From Aurantiacibacter marinus (GTDB lineage: Bacteria; Pseudomonadota; Alphaproteobacteria; Sphingomonadales; Sphingomonadaceae), in NCBI RefSeq assembly GCF_001021555.1, contig NZ_LDCP01000001.1:1240001-1304000 (forward strand): a stretch of DNA of 64,000 bases, written 5' to 3'. Both the position numbers and the translations under genes were made by a program. Below are positions 13,344-18,450 of this stretch, piece by piece (positions within the stretch are counted from its first letter, which is position 1; each line of letters begins with the position of its first letter). The notes below the pieces were generated by a model. The model was given only the letters and a program-made list of their open reading frames with translations. It had not been told where the DNA came from and did not search any database.

Positions 13344-13751
13344 TCAGCCAGCGGCAAGGCGGGCCGCGTGTTCACGCACCAGTGCGATCATGTTCGGCAC
13401 GCCTTGGGTGCGCTGCGAACTGAGCTGGTTCTTCAGATCGAATGGCGCGAGTGCCTGCGCCACATCCATCTGTGCCACTTCGCTTGCGGGTTTGTCCTGC
13501 ACGGCGGCAATAACCAGCGCGACGATGCCTTTGGTAATGGCCGCGTTGCTGTCTGCCAGGAAATGCAATTTGTCTGCCTCTCCCGTAGGATAGACCCATA
13601 CCTGCGCCGAACAGCCGCGCACCAGAGTGGCGTCCGTTTGCAGCGCTGCTGGCATCTCCTCCAGATCGCGGCCCAGCTCGATCAGCAGACGATACCGTTC
13701 GTCAGCATCGAGGAAATCATACTCTTCGTGGATGTCTTCAAGTGTGCGCAT
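13344..13751 (-). CDS. sufE: SufE family sulfur acceptor
   Basis: 135 aa. SufE takes persulfide from the cysteine desulfurase SufS and passes it to the SufBCD scaffold. The active-site cysteine lies in LVRGCSAQVWVYP near residue 46, and the family N-terminus (YDFLDADERYRLLIELG) and the ADSNAAITKGIVALV region are clear. It lies 24 bases after the last psp operon gene in the same direction, so read-through from the stress operon is possible; a small hairpin (AGGCG AAA CGCCT) sits between them without a T-run. Confidence 0.94.
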   Translation of the reverse strand: MRTLEDIHEEYDFLDADERYRLLIELGRDLEEMPAALQTDATLVRGCSAQVWVYPTGEADKLHFLADSNAAITKGIVALVIAAVQDKPASEVAQMDVAQALAPFDLKNQLSSQRTQGVPNMIALVREHAARLAAG

Positions 13752-13775: not shown

Positions 13776-14021
13776 TCAGAGGTCCACCCCGCTGGCGATC
13801 GCTTCCAGCTTGCGGATGCGTTCTTTCAGGTCCGCGATTTCGATGCGGGCCATTCCCTCGGGAGAGCCGTGCTCCATTTCCGGCGGCAGGCGGCGCAGTT
13901 CCAGTTCGCGGTTCTTCAGCGCGAGCCATCCTTGCCATCCCAGCAGCATGGTTCCCGCGGTAATCACCAGCGCAACCAGCACGGTTGCAGCAACAATCAT
14001 GTCGATTTCCATCATCATCAT
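13776..14021 (-). CDS. PspB-like single-pass membrane protein, sixth extra copy
   Basis: 81 aa from the first of four consecutive ATG codons, preceded by GGGAGAAC. One long hydrophobic helix (about residues 8-29) precedes a charged linker and a short coil ending ERIRKLEAIASGVDL. That tail is a truncated version of the ERIVTD-type motif of the upstream copies. It is the most diverged member and the last of the psp operon. The gap to the preceding copy is 34 bases. Role unknown; PspB-like proteins recruit PspA and PspC in the inner membrane. Confidence 0.8.
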   Translation of the reverse strand: MMMMEIDMIVAATVLVALVITAGTMLLGWQGWLALKNRELELRRLPPEMEHGSPEGMARIEIADLKERIRKLEAIASGVDL

Positions 14022-14055
14022 GTTCTCCCTGCCGAGCTTGCCATTTGCGATATTC

Positions 14056-14307
14056 CTATTCGTCCCGCAGTTTTTCAATTTCTTCGGCGGTGCGCCGCGA
14101 TGGATCTGTGGCGATGCGTTCCAGCACTTTCACCCGCTCCCGCAGGCTTTCGACTTCGTTTTCCAGTTCCTTCTCGCGCAGGCTGGACACCTGCTGCGGA
14201 TCATCATGAACGTGGCGGATTTCGTTATTTTTCCCGCTACGTGATCGAAACACGCCAGCCGCGACCACAATCAGCACGATCAGTACGATGGCACTATAAA
14301 AGCTCAT
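14056..14307 (-). CDS. PspB-like single-pass membrane protein, fifth extra copy
   Basis: 83 aa. The N-terminal helix SFYSAIVLIVLIVVAAGVF spans the membrane; the rest is a charged coiled coil (EKELENEVESLRERVKVLERI) that ends with the shared tail ERIATDPS..AEEIEKLRD. It overlaps the stop of the preceding copy by four bases (ATGA). The tail matches E. coli PspB in arrangement, where a single helix is followed by an RIQALEDIL coil. Function inferred only from family resemblance and operon position. Confidence 0.82.
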   Translation of the reverse strand: MSFYSAIVLIVLIVVAAGVFRSRSGKNNEIRHVHDDPQQVSSLREKELENEVESLRERVKVLERIATDPSRRTAEEIEKLRDE

Positions 14308-14597
14308 GCGACTTTCTCTCCATCAACCTTGATTTCGCGCAAATTTTCGATCTGGCGCGATATGTCGGCGGAAGGATCAGTGGCGATGCGTTCCAGCACG
14401 CGCAGGCGATCTTCCATTTGCTGGAAATCCTGATTGCGTGCGCCAGCCTGGCCCTTTTTCGCCTGCTCGATCTGCAATTCCAGCTCCAGCTTGCGCTGCT
14501 CATGATCGACTGCCCGCTGGTGAAATTTCTGCCCCATGGCAAAAACCAGAGAGGCCGCGAGCAGAATGAAAGTGAATATGACGACCAGTTCACCCAT
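14304..14597 (-). CDS. PspB-like single-pass membrane protein, fourth extra copy
   Basis: 97 aa. Membrane helix GELVVIFTFILLAASLVFAMG, then a long heptad-rich coil (HEQRKLELELQIEQAKK ... MEDRLRVLERIATDPSAD) and the tail SRQIENLRE. Start ATG overlaps the TGA of the preceding copy (TGATG) and its own stop overlaps the next start, so the set is translated as a coupled chain. The shape is like PspB but with a longer coil. Confidence 0.82.
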   Translation of the reverse strand: MGELVVIFTFILLAASLVFAMGQKFHQRAVDHEQRKLELELQIEQAKKGQAGARNQDFQQMEDRLRVLERIATDPSADISRQIENLREIKVDGEKVA

Positions 14598-14914
14598 CAG
14601 TTGGCCTCCGTCTTGGAACCACGCAGGCTCTCGATGTCATGGGTCAGCTGGTATCCGCTGTCGGTCACAATCCGCTCCACATTGGCCATGCGGTCCTTGA
14701 TGGAGCCAAGTTCGGCGCGAAGGGCAGCGTTTTCCTGGCTGAGCAGCTTCACGCGCTCCTCGTTTTCAGCGCCCTTGGGATAGACGGCCTTGCCCCAGCT
14801 GTTTTCCAGCGGATAACCGTGGCGCACGCGAATGAAGGTGTTGATCACCCAGGCCACGGATAGCGAAACAACGCCAACGCCCAGAACTGCGGGTGTGATG
14901 ATGCTCAAATCCAT
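14597..14914 (-). CDS. PspB-like single-pass membrane protein, third extra copy
   Basis: 105 aa. The hydrophobic helix IITPAVLGVGVVSLSVAWVIN is followed by RVRHGYPLENSWGK, a segment shared with the preceding copy (RAKHGYSLEDEWGG), so these two are close paralogues. The coil (EERVKLLSQENAALRAELGSI) leads to DRMANVERIVTDSGY and DIESLRG. Start overlaps the preceding stop (TAATG). Confidence 0.83.
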   Translation of the reverse strand: MDLSIITPAVLGVGVVSLSVAWVINTFIRVRHGYPLENSWGKAVYPKGAENEERVKLLSQENAALRAELGSIKDRMANVERIVTDSGYQLTHDIESLRGSKTEAN

Positions 14915-15273
14915 TAAACCTGTTCCTTCTGTTCAAAGTTCATCTGTACGCCGCTGTCCGTTGCCGGAGCGGCATTCCTTGCAGGCGGCGCATCACGCAG
15001 CGCCTCGATTTCTTCGGCCACGGTGTAGCCTTTGTCTGTAACGATGCGTTCCAGCACGACCATGCGGTCCTGCATCTTTTCCATCGTTTGCAGCAGCTTC
15101 TGGTTCGCTTCTTGCAGCGCATTATCATCGCGCTGGACGCGTGGTTCGGTCTTGCCGCCCCATTCGTCTTCCAGCGAATAGCCGTGCTTGGCGCGGATCC
15201 AGTTGTTGATCAGCCAGCCAAGCGTGCTGACGGCGATGATCGCGATGACGAATTCAGGGCTGCCCCAATCCAT
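14914..15273 (-). CDS. PspB-like single-pass membrane protein, second extra copy
   Basis: 119 aa. Membrane helix (FVIAIIAVSTLGWLINNWI), then AKHGYSLEDEWGG, a Gln-rich coil and DRMVVLERIVTDKGY with EEIEALRDA. The C-terminus SGVQMNFEQKEQV is nearly the same as the end of the first extra copy (SGVQMNFDQKEKA), and the DNA over this end is almost identical (about 14933-14956 and 15291-15314). That points to recent duplication or gene conversion. Start overlaps the preceding stop (TAATG). Confidence 0.84.
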   Translation of the reverse strand: MDWGSPEFVIAIIAVSTLGWLINNWIRAKHGYSLEDEWGGKTEPRVQRDDNALQEANQKLLQTMEKMQDRMVVLERIVTDKGYTVAEEIEALRDAPPARNAAPATDSGVQMNFEQKEQV

Positions 15274-15581
15274 TATGCCTTTTCCTTCTGATCAAAGTTC
15301 ATCTGTACGCCGCTGCTTCTGGCCTCCACGTCACGGGTGTCCCGCAATGCTTCGATCTGGGTTGCGACATCATATCCGCGGTCGGTGACGATGCGTTCCA
15401 GCACTTGCACCCGGTCTTCCAGCGCTTGCGTCTTGGCGGCATATTGGGCGGCCATTTCGGCGGTGTGTTCGGCAGTGGCGCCGATGCGCATTTCCGCCAT
15501 TTTGCGCTGGTGGCTGGTCCAGATCGCGATGATCGGGATGCTCACGCCCAGAATTGGTATCAGCAGTGCAAGTTCACCCAT
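15273..15581 (-). CDS. PspB-like single-pass membrane protein, first extra copy
   Basis: 102 aa. The helix GELALLIPILGVSIPIIAIW is followed by a basic HQRK patch, then a coil (TAEMAAQYAAKTQALEDRVQ) and the motif VLERIVTDRGY with TQIEALRDT. It begins 27 bases after the pspC stop with a GGGGACG ribosome site. This is the prototype of the six-gene series downstream of pspC. It ends with the SGVQMNFDQKEKA tail shared with the second copy. Confidence 0.84.
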   Translation of the reverse strand: MGELALLIPILGVSIPIIAIWTSHQRKMAEMRIGATAEHTAEMAAQYAAKTQALEDRVQVLERIVTDRGYDVATQIEALRDTRDVEARSSGVQMNFDQKEKA

Positions 15582-15608: not shown

Positions 15609-15986
15609 TCAGCGCAGGCGCTCGATTTCGGAAGTCAGGCGCGGGTTAGAACTGACGTAGTAGCTTTCAACCTCGGCCAGCCGGCGATCGACATCCTTCA
15701 TCTGGCCGCGGATTTCGCGGGCCGTGCGTTTCGGATTCTGCCGAACACCCTGCCAGTACTGGTTCTCACCCGGATCGGCGGAGTAAAGATGCGCCGGCTT
15801 CTTGCTCAGCAGGACGCCCATGACGATATAGATCAGGAACGGCCAACCCATCGTTATTGTCAGCACAATGGTTGCCAGACGGACCCAGATTGCGTTGACC
15901 CCGGTGTAGTCGGCGATGCCGGAGCAAACGCCCATGAGCTTGCCATTCTGCTTGTCACGGTAAAGCGTGGTGCGGGGGGTATTCAT
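15609..15986 (-). CDS. pspC: Phage shock protein PspC
   Basis: 125 aa. The PspC domain is clear: NGKLMGVCSGIADYTGVNAIW (about residues 14-34), then a double hydrophobic stretch (ATIVLTITMGWPFLIYIVMGVLL). The C-terminal half is a coiled coil ending RRLAEVESYYVSSNPRL-TSEIERLR, a form of the tail shared by the PspB-like proteins. PspC works with PspB in the inner membrane to bind PspA under envelope stress and free PspF. Its start overlaps the pspB stop by four bases. Confidence 0.93.
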   Translation of the reverse strand: MNTPRTTLYRDKQNGKLMGVCSGIADYTGVNAIWVRLATIVLTITMGWPFLIYIVMGVLLSKKPAHLYSADPGENQYWQGVRQNPKRTAREIRGQMKDVDRRLAEVESYYVSSNPRLTSEIERLR

Positions 15987-16279
15987 GCGCGTTCTCCCTT
16001 CTTTGCGGCGAGCATTTCTTCCAGTTCGCGGAGCGGCACATTGTCCGCTTCCTTGTTGTGCTGGATGCGGGCGGGCTGGAAATCGGCATTGTCATGCGCG
16101 ACCAGACGTTCAACCGTGTCCATCCGCTCATCCAGACGCTTGGCCAGACTGTAGAGGTCTTCCAGCAGCGCCTCGTCATCGGTGGTGATGGTTGCGGCGG
16201 TTTTCCATTTTGTTACGTAATGGAGGATCACCCACGGCAGGCCGATGAAAATGGCCGGTATGATGATGATTTCTTCCAC
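15983..16279 (-). CDS. pspB: Phage shock protein PspB
   Basis: 98 aa. A membrane helix (IIIIPAIFIGLPWVILHYV) is followed by TKWKT and a coil (LLEDLYSLAKRLDERMDTVERLV), matching the PspB plan of helix plus RMRERI-type coil. The C-terminal extension of about 25 residues is charged. It lies two bases after pspA and overlaps pspC. PspB and PspC form the membrane sensor that recruits PspA. Confidence 0.9.
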   Translation of the reverse strand: MEEIIIIPAIFIGLPWVILHYVTKWKTAATITTDDEALLEDLYSLAKRLDERMDTVERLVAHDNADFQPARIQHNKEADNVPLRELEEMLAAKKGERA

Positions 16280-16281
16280 GT

Positions 16282-16977
16282 TTATTCCCCTTCGATCTTT
16301 TTAACGTCGCCGCCTTTGCCAAGCGCGCGCTTCATTTCTTCCAGTTCCTCGTCCACCTTGTCGCCGCCTTCCAGCGCTGCGAATTCATCGGCGAGGCTGC
16401 CGCTGCTGCCCTGGGCAATCTGCAGCGAATCTGCGCGCCCTTCGGCGTAATCGACACGGCGTTCGAGCTGGTCGAAGCGAGTGAGTGCATCGTCCACGCG
16501 TTCGTTCGTCATCAGGCTGCGCAGCTTCACACGGTTTTCCGCGCTTTCCAGGCGGGCCGCGATCTGGGTCTGGCGGCTGCGGGCTTCGCGCAAGCGGTTC
16601 TGCAACTTGGCAATATCCTGTTCGTAAGCGCGCAATGCATCGTCCAGCACAGCCATTTCCTGCTTCAGCTGATCAATCATGTCGGTCGCTTTGCGCTTTT
16701 CCATCAGCGCAGCGCGCGCCAGGTCTTCGCGGTCCTTGCTGAGCGCCAGCTGGGCCTTTTCGCCCCAGTCGGCCTGCAAGCGGTCCAGCTTCACCGTGTG
16801 GCGATGCATTTCCTTCTGATCGGCAATGGTGCGCGCCGCGCTTGCCCGAACTTCGACCAGCGTTTCTTCCATCTCGAGGATAATCATGCGGATCATCTTC
16901 GTGGGGTCGTCCGCCTGGTCGAGCAGCTCGTTGAAGTTGGCAGCGATAATATCACGGGTGCGGCTAAAAATGCCCAT
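16282..16977 (-). CDS. pspA: Phage shock protein PspA, membrane-repair ESCRT-III/IM30 family
   Basis: 231 aa from the ATG at 16975-16977 (MGIFSRTRDIIAANFNELLD), the universal PspA start, with a strong GGAGGAAA ribosome site. PspA assembles on damaged inner membrane and inhibits PspF. The amphipathic N-terminus, the DDPTKMIRMIILEMEETL segment and the long helical hairpin with VRASAARTIADQKEM are family hallmarks. The frame stays open to a GTG at 17118, adding 47 residues (MSDENNNPLAPIGDGLKR...); that start overlaps the stop of the 51-aa peptide. A ribosome site embedded in the extension argues for the short form as the main product. Confidence 0.93.
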   Translation of the reverse strand: MGIFSRTRDIIAANFNELLDQADDPTKMIRMIILEMEETLVEVRASAARTIADQKEMHRHTVKLDRLQADWGEKAQLALSKDREDLARAALMEKRKATDMIDQLKQEMAVLDDALRAYEQDIAKLQNRLREARSRQTQIAARLESAENRVKLRSLMTNERVDDALTRFDQLERRVDYAEGRADSLQIAQGSSGSLADEFAALEGGDKVDEELEEMKRALGKGGDVKKIEGE

Positions 16978-17114: not shown

Positions 17115-17270
17115 TCACGCCAGTTCGCCAACAGTGGCAAGGCTCAAAATGGCGTCAGCGTCTGACACATCGGACTGCATCTGCGCGAAAACGGTGAATG
17201 CAACCATTGCCATCACGCTAACCATCGCGGCGTGTCCTACCTTGCTGGAGAAGAAGCTGTGATTGAACAT
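17115..17270 (-). CDS. 51-aa membrane-targeted peptide heading the psp operon
   Basis: First gene after the sigma-54 promoter, with ribosome site AGGAGGG seven bases before ATG. The product begins MFNHSFFSSKVGHAAMVSVM and has one hydrophobic segment ending TVFAQ, then an acidic tail QSDVSDADAILSLATVGELA. The layout recalls the 42-aa peptides of the 2.3 kb locus: short polar head with K/R-V, hydrophobic core, possible signal-peptidase site (VFA) and a short A/L-rich tail. Sequence identity is weak, so common ancestry is inference. Function unknown. Confidence 0.75.
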   Translation of the reverse strand: MFNHSFFSSKVGHAAMVSVMAMVAFTVFAQMQSDVSDADAILSLATVGELA

Positions 17271-17307
17271 TGTGAAACCCTCCTGAAATTCTGTACATCC
17301 GATTAAT

Positions 17308-17324
17308 AGCAACACCCGTGCCAG
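17308..17324 (-). promoter_or_regulatory. Sigma-54 promoter of the psp operon
   Basis: On the reverse strand CTGGCACGGGTGTTGCT fits the RpoN consensus TGGCAC-N5-TTGC exactly. The -24 GG is at 17321-17322 and the -12 GC at 17309-17310. The first gene starts at 17270. It lies about 84 bp from the palindrome at 17400-17411. Confidence 0.87.
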
Positions 17325-17399
17325 ATGTTCGGAATGGCGGATTTCTGCGGGTTTTTGGTAACGCGGCGTAACGCAATGTGGTTCTGCTTGCCAAGATGT

Positions 17400-17411
17400 G
17401 GGAAATTTCCC
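17400..17411. promoter_or_regulatory. Palindromic PspF enhancer site between pspF and the psp operon
   Basis: GGGAAATTTCCC is a perfect 12-base palindrome. It is placed to activate the reverse-strand sigma-54 promoter and overlaps the 5' region of pspF itself, 14 bases before the ATG, which would allow PspF to repress its own gene as known in enterobacteria. A related palindrome lies at 2128-2144. Confidence 0.72.
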
Positions 17412-17424
17412 TATATATTGGGTC

Positions 17425-18450
17425 ATGGAGCAGAAGAACCAGTTTATCGGCCAGTCGGGTGCTTTTCTCGATGCGGTGGAGCGGGCCAGTAAAGCTGCTC
17501 CGATGGCGCGGCCCGTGCTCGTGATCGGAGAGCGCGGGACCGGCAAGGAACTGATTGCCGAACGTCTTCACCGCCTGTCCAATCGCTGGGAAAATCCGCT
17601 GGTCACGATGAACTGCGCGGCTTTGCCCGAAACCCTGATCGAAGCCGAACTGTTCGGCCATGAACAGGGTGCATTCACCGGCGCTACCAGAGCGCGCGAG
17701 GGCCGTTTCGAAGAAGCCGACGGAGGCACGTTATTTCTCGACGAACTGGGCACGCTGTCCATGGGCGCACAGGAAAGGCTGCTTCGCGCGGTGGAATATG
17801 GCGAAGTGACCCGCATCGGATCATCGCGCCCGACGCAAGTCGATGTGCGGATCGTCGCGGCCACCAATGAAGACCTGCCGCGCCGTGCGGAGGAAGGCAC
17901 GTTTCGCGCCGATCTGCTCGACCGGCTTACCTTCGAAGTCATCACTCTGCCCCCTCTGCGGGTGCGCGAAGGAGACATTCAGGTGCTGGCCGATTATTTC
18001 GGCAGGCGCATGGCAGCGGAACTGGGCTGGGAACAGTGGCCCGGTTTTGCCGATCACATTGCCCAGGCGATGGAAGATCATCCCTGGCCCGGCAATGTCC
18101 GCGAATTGCGCAATGTAACAGAGCGCGCGATTTACCGCTGGGACAATTGGGAACAGCCTGTCGGTGAAGTCGTGTTCGATCCGTTCGACAGTCCGTGGAA
18201 GCCGCTTCCCGTTGCCGCGCAGCATGAGCATGACAAGACGGGGAGGGTGGCTGCAAAACCTGCGCCAGCCGCGCCGCGCTTTGACGATGTAAACGACCTG
18301 CGCGCTGCAGTGGACGCGCATGAACGCGCTATCGTCGAACATGCACTGGGCGCAAACCGCTGGAACCAGCGCCAGACTGCGAAAGCGCTGGGTCTGAGTT
18401 ACGACCAGCTGCGCCACTGCATAAAGAAGCACGACATCGCGGCGAACTGA
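17425..18450 (+). CDS. pspF: Sigma-54-dependent activator PspF
   Basis: 341 aa from the ATG at 17425; the GTG at 17398 would place coding sequence across the enhancer palindrome and does not match the family N-terminus. It lacks a receiver domain, as PspF does. Walker A GERGTGKE is at residues 35-42, the sigma-54 contact loop GAFTGA at 82-87, Walker B GGTLFLDEL follows, and the C-terminal Fis-type helix-turn-helix is NQRQTAKALGLSYDQLRHCI. A 45-residue charged, Ala/Pro-rich linker precedes the HTH. PspA binding normally keeps it inactive. Confidence 0.95.
   Translation: MEQKNQFIGQSGAFLDAVERASKAAPMARPVLVIGERGTGKELIAERLHRLSNRWENPLVTMNCAALPETLIEAELFGHEQGAFTGATRAREGRFEEADGGTLFLDELGTLSMGAQERLLRAVEYGEVTRIGSSRPTQVDVRIVAATNEDLPRRAEEGTFRADLLDRLTFEVITLPPLRVREGDIQVLADYFGRRMAAELGWEQWPGFADHIAQAMEDHPWPGNVRELRNVTERAIYRWDNWEQPVGEVVFDPFDSPWKPLPVAAQHEHDKTGRVAAKPAPAAPRFDDVNDLRAAVDAHERAIVEHALGANRWNQRQTAKALGLSYDQLRHCIKKHDIAAN

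Follow-up and report, generated by a model that had tools for sequence, protein, structure and literature searches.

The psp operon of Aurantiacibacter marinus raises the question of what the six small membrane proteins encoded in series behind pspC (c1-c6, here called the array) are, and what they contribute to the operon. The array bears on the means by which PspB and PspC detect damage to the membrane and signal PspA. A sequence-only reading of the 64,000-nucleotide stretch of DNA that we analysed (the window) had taken the six for extra PspB-like proteins that enlarge the membrane sensor. In the excerpted text of Ravi et al. (2024), a single line mentions 'PspB duplicates in the operon', with AOL22920.1 as the example, and the same excerpts give no copy number, tail analysis, relation to the PspC tail, conservation or mechanism (PMC11237479). 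The excerpts of Popp et al. (2022) leave the array unmentioned (PMC9239133), and no paper devoted to it was found in the open-access literature; its conservation and the kinship of its tails with that of PspC seem undescribed. In Zymomonas, a sphingomonad, pspABC transcripts go up under ethanol (PMC3495753), and pspA and a small upstream gene respond to temperature (PMC8237431); the excerpts of these stress studies do not name the array genes (PMC3495753, PMC8237431). Here, we describe the locus (Table 1), its relatives across genomes and a proposed role for the array proteins.

Table 1. Features of the psp and array locus, in positions of the window.
Feature	Position	Strand	Remarks
pspF-type sigma54 activator, divergent	17398..18450	+	identified by sequence and position
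sigma54 (-24/-12) promoter TGGCACGGGTGTTGCT	17308..17323	-	346 nt before pspA
51-aa small membrane-leader ORF (MFNHSFF..VGELA)	17116..17271 (approximate)	-	first gene 3' of the sigma54 site
pspA	16282..16977	-	PF04012 6e-36, TIGR02977 4e-83, above cut-off
pspB	15983..16279	-	PF06667 1.8e-18, TIGR02976 3.9e-26, above cut-off
pspC, C-terminal tail RRLAEVESYYVSSNPRLTSEIERLR	15609..15986	-	TIGR02978 4.3e-38, above cut-off
c1, single-pass, tail LEDRVQVLERIVTDRGYDVATQIEALRD, end SGVQMNFDQKEKA	15273..15581	-	leave-one-out E 3.9e-13
c2, head WIRAKHGYSLEDEWGG and shared tail	14914..15273	-	leave-one-out E 1e-14; conserved ortholog class
c3, head RVRHGYPLENSWG, tail KDRMANVERIVTD..IESLR	14597..14914	-	leave-one-out E 2.4e-13; starred ortholog clade
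c4, single-pass, with tail	14304..14597	-	leave-one-out E 5.3e-13
c5, kin of NPFEMVV-type single copies elsewhere	14056..14307	-	leave-one-out E 5.9e-12
c6, single-pass, end RIEIADLKERIRKLEAIASGVDL, coil half of tail	13776..14021	-	leave-one-out E 0.025
sufE, constant neighbour 3' of the array	13344..13751	-	PF02657 2.1e-34

All six open reading frames lie where the sequence-only reading had placed them, between 13776 and 15581 on the minus strand. The start preferred for c6 is the ATG at 14021, which follows GGGAG; a longer TTG frame reaching 14078 was set aside as mechanical. Each copy has the single N-terminal membrane helix that had been claimed for it, seen as one strong hydrophobic segment (best 19-residue KD 1.8-2.7). 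Overlapping starts and stops couple most of the copies, with overlaps of 1, 1, 1 and 4 nt at four of the five junctions and a 34-nt gap between c5 and c6. The ends of c1 and c2 are near-identical (44/48 nt by count), and this common stretch also holds the AGAAGGA ribosome-binding site for the next overlapping gene. Since positively charged residues follow the helix in 198/199 array proteins, the C-terminus is placed in the cytoplasm, and from this charge distribution the tails are predicted to be cytoplasmic. An AlphaFold2 model of c1 is one long helix (mean pLDDT 79; pTM 0.36, a low global confidence), and a model of the PspC tail consists of helices 85-113 and 115-124, that is, coil and end helix.

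Reading along the minus strand, the sigma54 site is followed by the leader ORF, pspA, pspB, pspC, c1-c6 and sufE. Within the 64-kb window, TGGCACNNNNNTTGCW is matched exactly just once, at the sigma54 site 5' of the whole psp and array set, and this exact matching located no second sigma54 site inside that set. A sigma54-like site lies ~110-650 nt 5' of pspA in nearly all Sphingomonadales loci examined, and the gene equivalent to the divergent activator carries the annotation pspF in Sphingomonas parapaucimobilis. These observations support the array genes as part of a sigma54/PspF-type psp operon, with which they are predicted to be co-transcribed. A sigma70-like site within the array (14322-14293, 9/12 matches) was dismissed as being at chance level. 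Many family loci have a comparable leader ORF 34-66 nt past the sigma54 site, with the pattern M[FY].R.FF..K.G.AA..S.AAM... and the end E(L/I)A; its position is that of Zymomonas ZMO1062, which, in excerpts of two studies, is induced together with pspA (PMC8645129, PMC8237431). Between 17118 and 16978 on the minus strand, in frame 5' of the PspA start, the motif RLDxEIERLRTSPTPT is conserved in the clade of the window and has EIERLR in common with the tails of the array; this stretch may belong to PspA as an N-terminal extension or form a small ORF of its own. At the other end, sufE comes after the array in most family loci, and in eight loci (L040, L044, L047, L048 and L056 included) a short conserved ORF of the type AGIGLGSAIAVAISWSLHxSIxWAI..GWFYVIYYAxTRPGG lies between c6 and sufE; no such ORF was seen in the window.

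The shared tail had been proposed with a profile search as its test, and it passed: when a profile built from five copies was run against the 940 ORFs of the window to seek the sixth, c1-c5 were recovered at E 6e-12 or better, and c6 had an E of 0.025, yet was still the next-ranked ORF among the 940. PspC and PspB rank right behind the array copies in 6/7 profile runs. The search, together with reversed and shuffled profile controls, ruled out chance coiled-coil similarity. The consensus given for the tail agrees best with c1-c3; IATD without GY stands in c4 and c5, and c6 is without EIExLRD. The tail of c6 has the coil LKERIRKLEAIA and the end '..ERIRKLEAIASGVDL', and its EIExLR element is absent. 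Against solved structures, the array proteins matched generic coiled coils at E>0.04 and PspB matched none.

That PspB and the PspC tail carry related forms was also borne out. By hhalign, a profile of relatives' array proteins matched the PspB profile at 93% over 23 columns, which are the coil, and the PspC profile at 95% over 40 columns, which are the coil and the end element; reversed profiles gave 1% and 7%, and the top score of 40 column-shuffled profiles was 23.6, where the unshuffled profiles scored 43-49. The PspB and PspC of Sphingomonadales find no match in each other (2%), and the array therefore links both families. Of these two families, PspC alone has the second tail element, EIExLR. 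No array copy scores above the Pfam/NCBIfam cut-offs for the PspB or PspC family. The best PspB-family score is that of c1 (PF06667 17.7 bits, cut-off 25.6; TIGR02976 21.0 bits, cut-off 51.7; E 3e-4 against the PspB model, under cut-off), and among 28 relatives the PspB model gives a best E of 8e-8 without reaching the curated cut-off. At E<=0.01, the PspC model TIGR02978 matches 21/28 array members and the PspB model 15/28. The copy c4 aligns to positions 43-121 of the PspC model (second helix and tail; E 1.1e-3), and homologs unlinked to psp align to it from ~43 to 121, which is again membrane helix plus tail. PF04024, the N-terminal PspC domain, has no match in any of the six copies.

What, then, becomes of the label 'PspB-like'? 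It holds for the layout (N-terminal membrane helix and, by computation, a cytoplasmic coil), for the place in the psp operon and for the common tail; a PspC-type C-terminal coil plus end helix is likewise found in every copy except c6. It does not hold in the sense of PspB duplicates, since the median scores of the array profile are 42 bits for unlinked gammaproteobacterial proteins, 16.4 for PspC and 11.6 for PspB. This ranking rules out recent PspB duplication and makes the array a distinct family rather than fresh PspB copies, one that lies outside the Pfam/NCBIfam cut-offs and is annotated as hypothetical. Judged from sequence, 'extra PspB' would be better replaced by putative free PspC-half modules in a PspB-like layout, with a function suggested by that likeness.

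The proteins could still act as extra PspB-type subunits, mixing with PspB and PspC via their membrane helices in a larger hetero-oligomeric sensor without direct contact to PspA. The PspB-like layout and orientation and the profile match of 93% speak for this, as does E. coli PspB, which self-associates and binds PspC via membrane regions (PMC3068692). However, the array is no closer in sequence to PspB than to PspC, its second tail element is common to PspC only, and the strong variation of the heads fits poorly with a single conserved helix-helix interface; we regard this explanation as unlikely.

In a tree of 105 proteins (86 columns), the c6 and c3 classes are starred clades, and the other copies cluster mostly by class, not by genome, with many forks open. 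Between classes, identity is 11-32% in the heads and 36-51% in the tails of the five full-tail classes c1-c5, or 30-43% in tail comparisons involving c6; within classes it is 27-54% in the head and 52-86% in the tail, the highest tail value (86%) being that of c6. Individual classes are conserved across genera. The dN/dS values of close pairs are 0.07-0.74, mostly 0.15-0.45, and the array genes are under purifying selection; these values and the conserved order ruled out non-coding or decaying ORFs. Within one genome, the last residues are often common to neighbouring copies, which suggests local duplication or conversion; the ribosome-binding site that serves the following gene may in part preserve this likeness. 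Minimal loci keep c5 alone or c5 and c6, from which c5 is likely to be the oldest member. Could the array consist of effectors, small membrane proteins similar to PspG/PspD that, without any part in signalling, stabilise a damaged membrane or serve as anchors for PspA scaffolds? The same stress promoter, a high copy count that suits a structural role and a copy number free to vary from one to eight per locus are in keeping with such proteins, but their best-conserved part is the PspC-like signalling tail and not the membrane segment, and we find this explanation quite unlikely.

The enlargement of the psp set is real and family-wide. Array proteins were found by a six-frame profile search in 285/298 genomes and 81/89 genera of the window's family, with one to nine matches per genome from a profile that mostly misses c6. 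PspC itself is present in 143/148 Sphingomonadales genomes. A gene-by-gene walk through 41 family loci found between one and seven copies directly behind pspC, and the longest tandem runs seen are eight copies per locus. PspA was detected in 288/298 family genomes, 284 with array proteins and four without; of the ten others, nine are without array proteins and one has them. This co-absence (284/4 versus 1/9) gives a Fisher p of 1.6e-13 with shared ancestry ignored, the nine genomes without both being five genera and hence not independent events. The exception with an array and without PspA is an assembly artefact, because its pspC lies at base 71 of the contig; one of the four opposite cases is another, because its pspC lies at a contig end.

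Beyond the family, 20 sampled psp loci of other families of the order are without an array, except that a few have one relative close to pspC. Among these few, three loci of another family (L088, L090 and L091) have pspC, a second, tail-less PspC, one c5-like protein and a different conserved gene; the PspC tail seems to be supplied there in trans. Outside the order, gammaproteobacteria and a few alphaproteobacteria have one homolog or a pair of them, with no linkage to psp within the 6.5-kb stretches examined. Because single-copy homologs sit outside psp operons, the tail need not mean PspA binding in gammaproteobacteria. The gammaproteobacterial single-pass tail proteins (L127-L146) have varied contexts, several adjoining a tadA-like deaminase gene. 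A plasmid collection yielded one match, on a Sphingomonas replicon and within its psp locus; PLSDB/RefSeq annotates the array-equivalent genes there as hypothetical proteins. That the array genes are unrelated genes parked behind pspC by position only would suit the unlinked homologs outside the family, but it is made highly improbable by the overlaps between the genes, the homology of their tails to PspB and PspC, the retention of the array throughout the family and its absence together with psp.

We give about even weight to the array proteins being, and not being, free-standing equivalents of the membrane-helix-plus-tail half of PspC, directed at PspA with several inputs and one output. Each is proposed to be a module directed at PspA, with a head of its own that reads the membrane, because the build is that of E. 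coli PspC40-119 and the tails are predicted to be cytoplasmic. The tail match to PspC over both elements, the varied heads on like tails, the conservation of each class, the dN/dS values, the co-absence with PspA and the one exact sigma54 site ahead of the whole set also speak for this reading. PspC40-119 (membrane helix and tail) bound PspA in some two-hybrid fusions, its overexpression induced psp without PspB, and PspC zipper mutants lost PspA binding (PMC3068692). Four points count against this PspC-half reading: the E. coli tail-PspA contact is fusion-dependent and aided by PspB (PMC3068692); the c1 model (pTM 0.36) is without the break present in the PspC tail; c6 has no end helix and is only weakly linked by sequence; and the gammaproteobacterial single-copy homologs sit outside psp operons.

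Under the PspC-half reading, each array protein would lack the PspC domain and consist of one membrane helix and a cytoplasmic coil, to which five of the six add a short end helix, and would be co-produced with the PspF-controlled pspABC. The common tails would most likely contact one partner, PspA, alone or inside a PspB/PspC complex, and the differing membrane and juxtamembrane segments would sample different membrane states or sites. Under stress, the array proteins would pull PspA off PspF and retain it at the membrane. We infer PspA as the partner, sensing by the heads and the effect on PspF, and with them the sensor role of the array; the diversified heads are best read as several inputs or docking sites feeding one output. 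A constant output tail with a varied input segment across genera offers a natural set for module swaps and deletions. More tentatively, and with some doubt on our part, a family of free 'PspC-half' proteins, which several proteobacteria have as unlinked single genes, may have been recruited to the Sphingomonadaceae-type psp operon of the window's family and have divided there into classes, the heads of each class reading distinct membrane conditions and one tail leading to PspA. If so, the recruited PspC-half classes would be a multi-input sensor of membrane damage.

Three known arrangements can be set beside the array. The first is the C-terminal half of PspC (TIGR02978), which likewise has a membrane helix (the second of PspC) followed by a coil, here a leucine zipper, and an EIExLR end element, in the same operon; the array proteins differ in being without the N-terminal PF04024 domain and in having a gene each, with as many as eight such genes per locus. 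The second is PspB (PF06667/TIGR02976), which is alike in size, single N-terminal helix, C-in orientation, a coil with ERI(V/I) and operon; nevertheless, the array stays below the curated cut-offs, has the additional EIExLR end element and is not nearest to PspB by sequence. The third, from the excerpts of Ravi et al. (2024; PMC11237479), is a PspC to which a divergent PspB domain is fused. There too a PspB-like module is joined to PspC, but within one protein, whereas the modules of the array are separate and multiplied.
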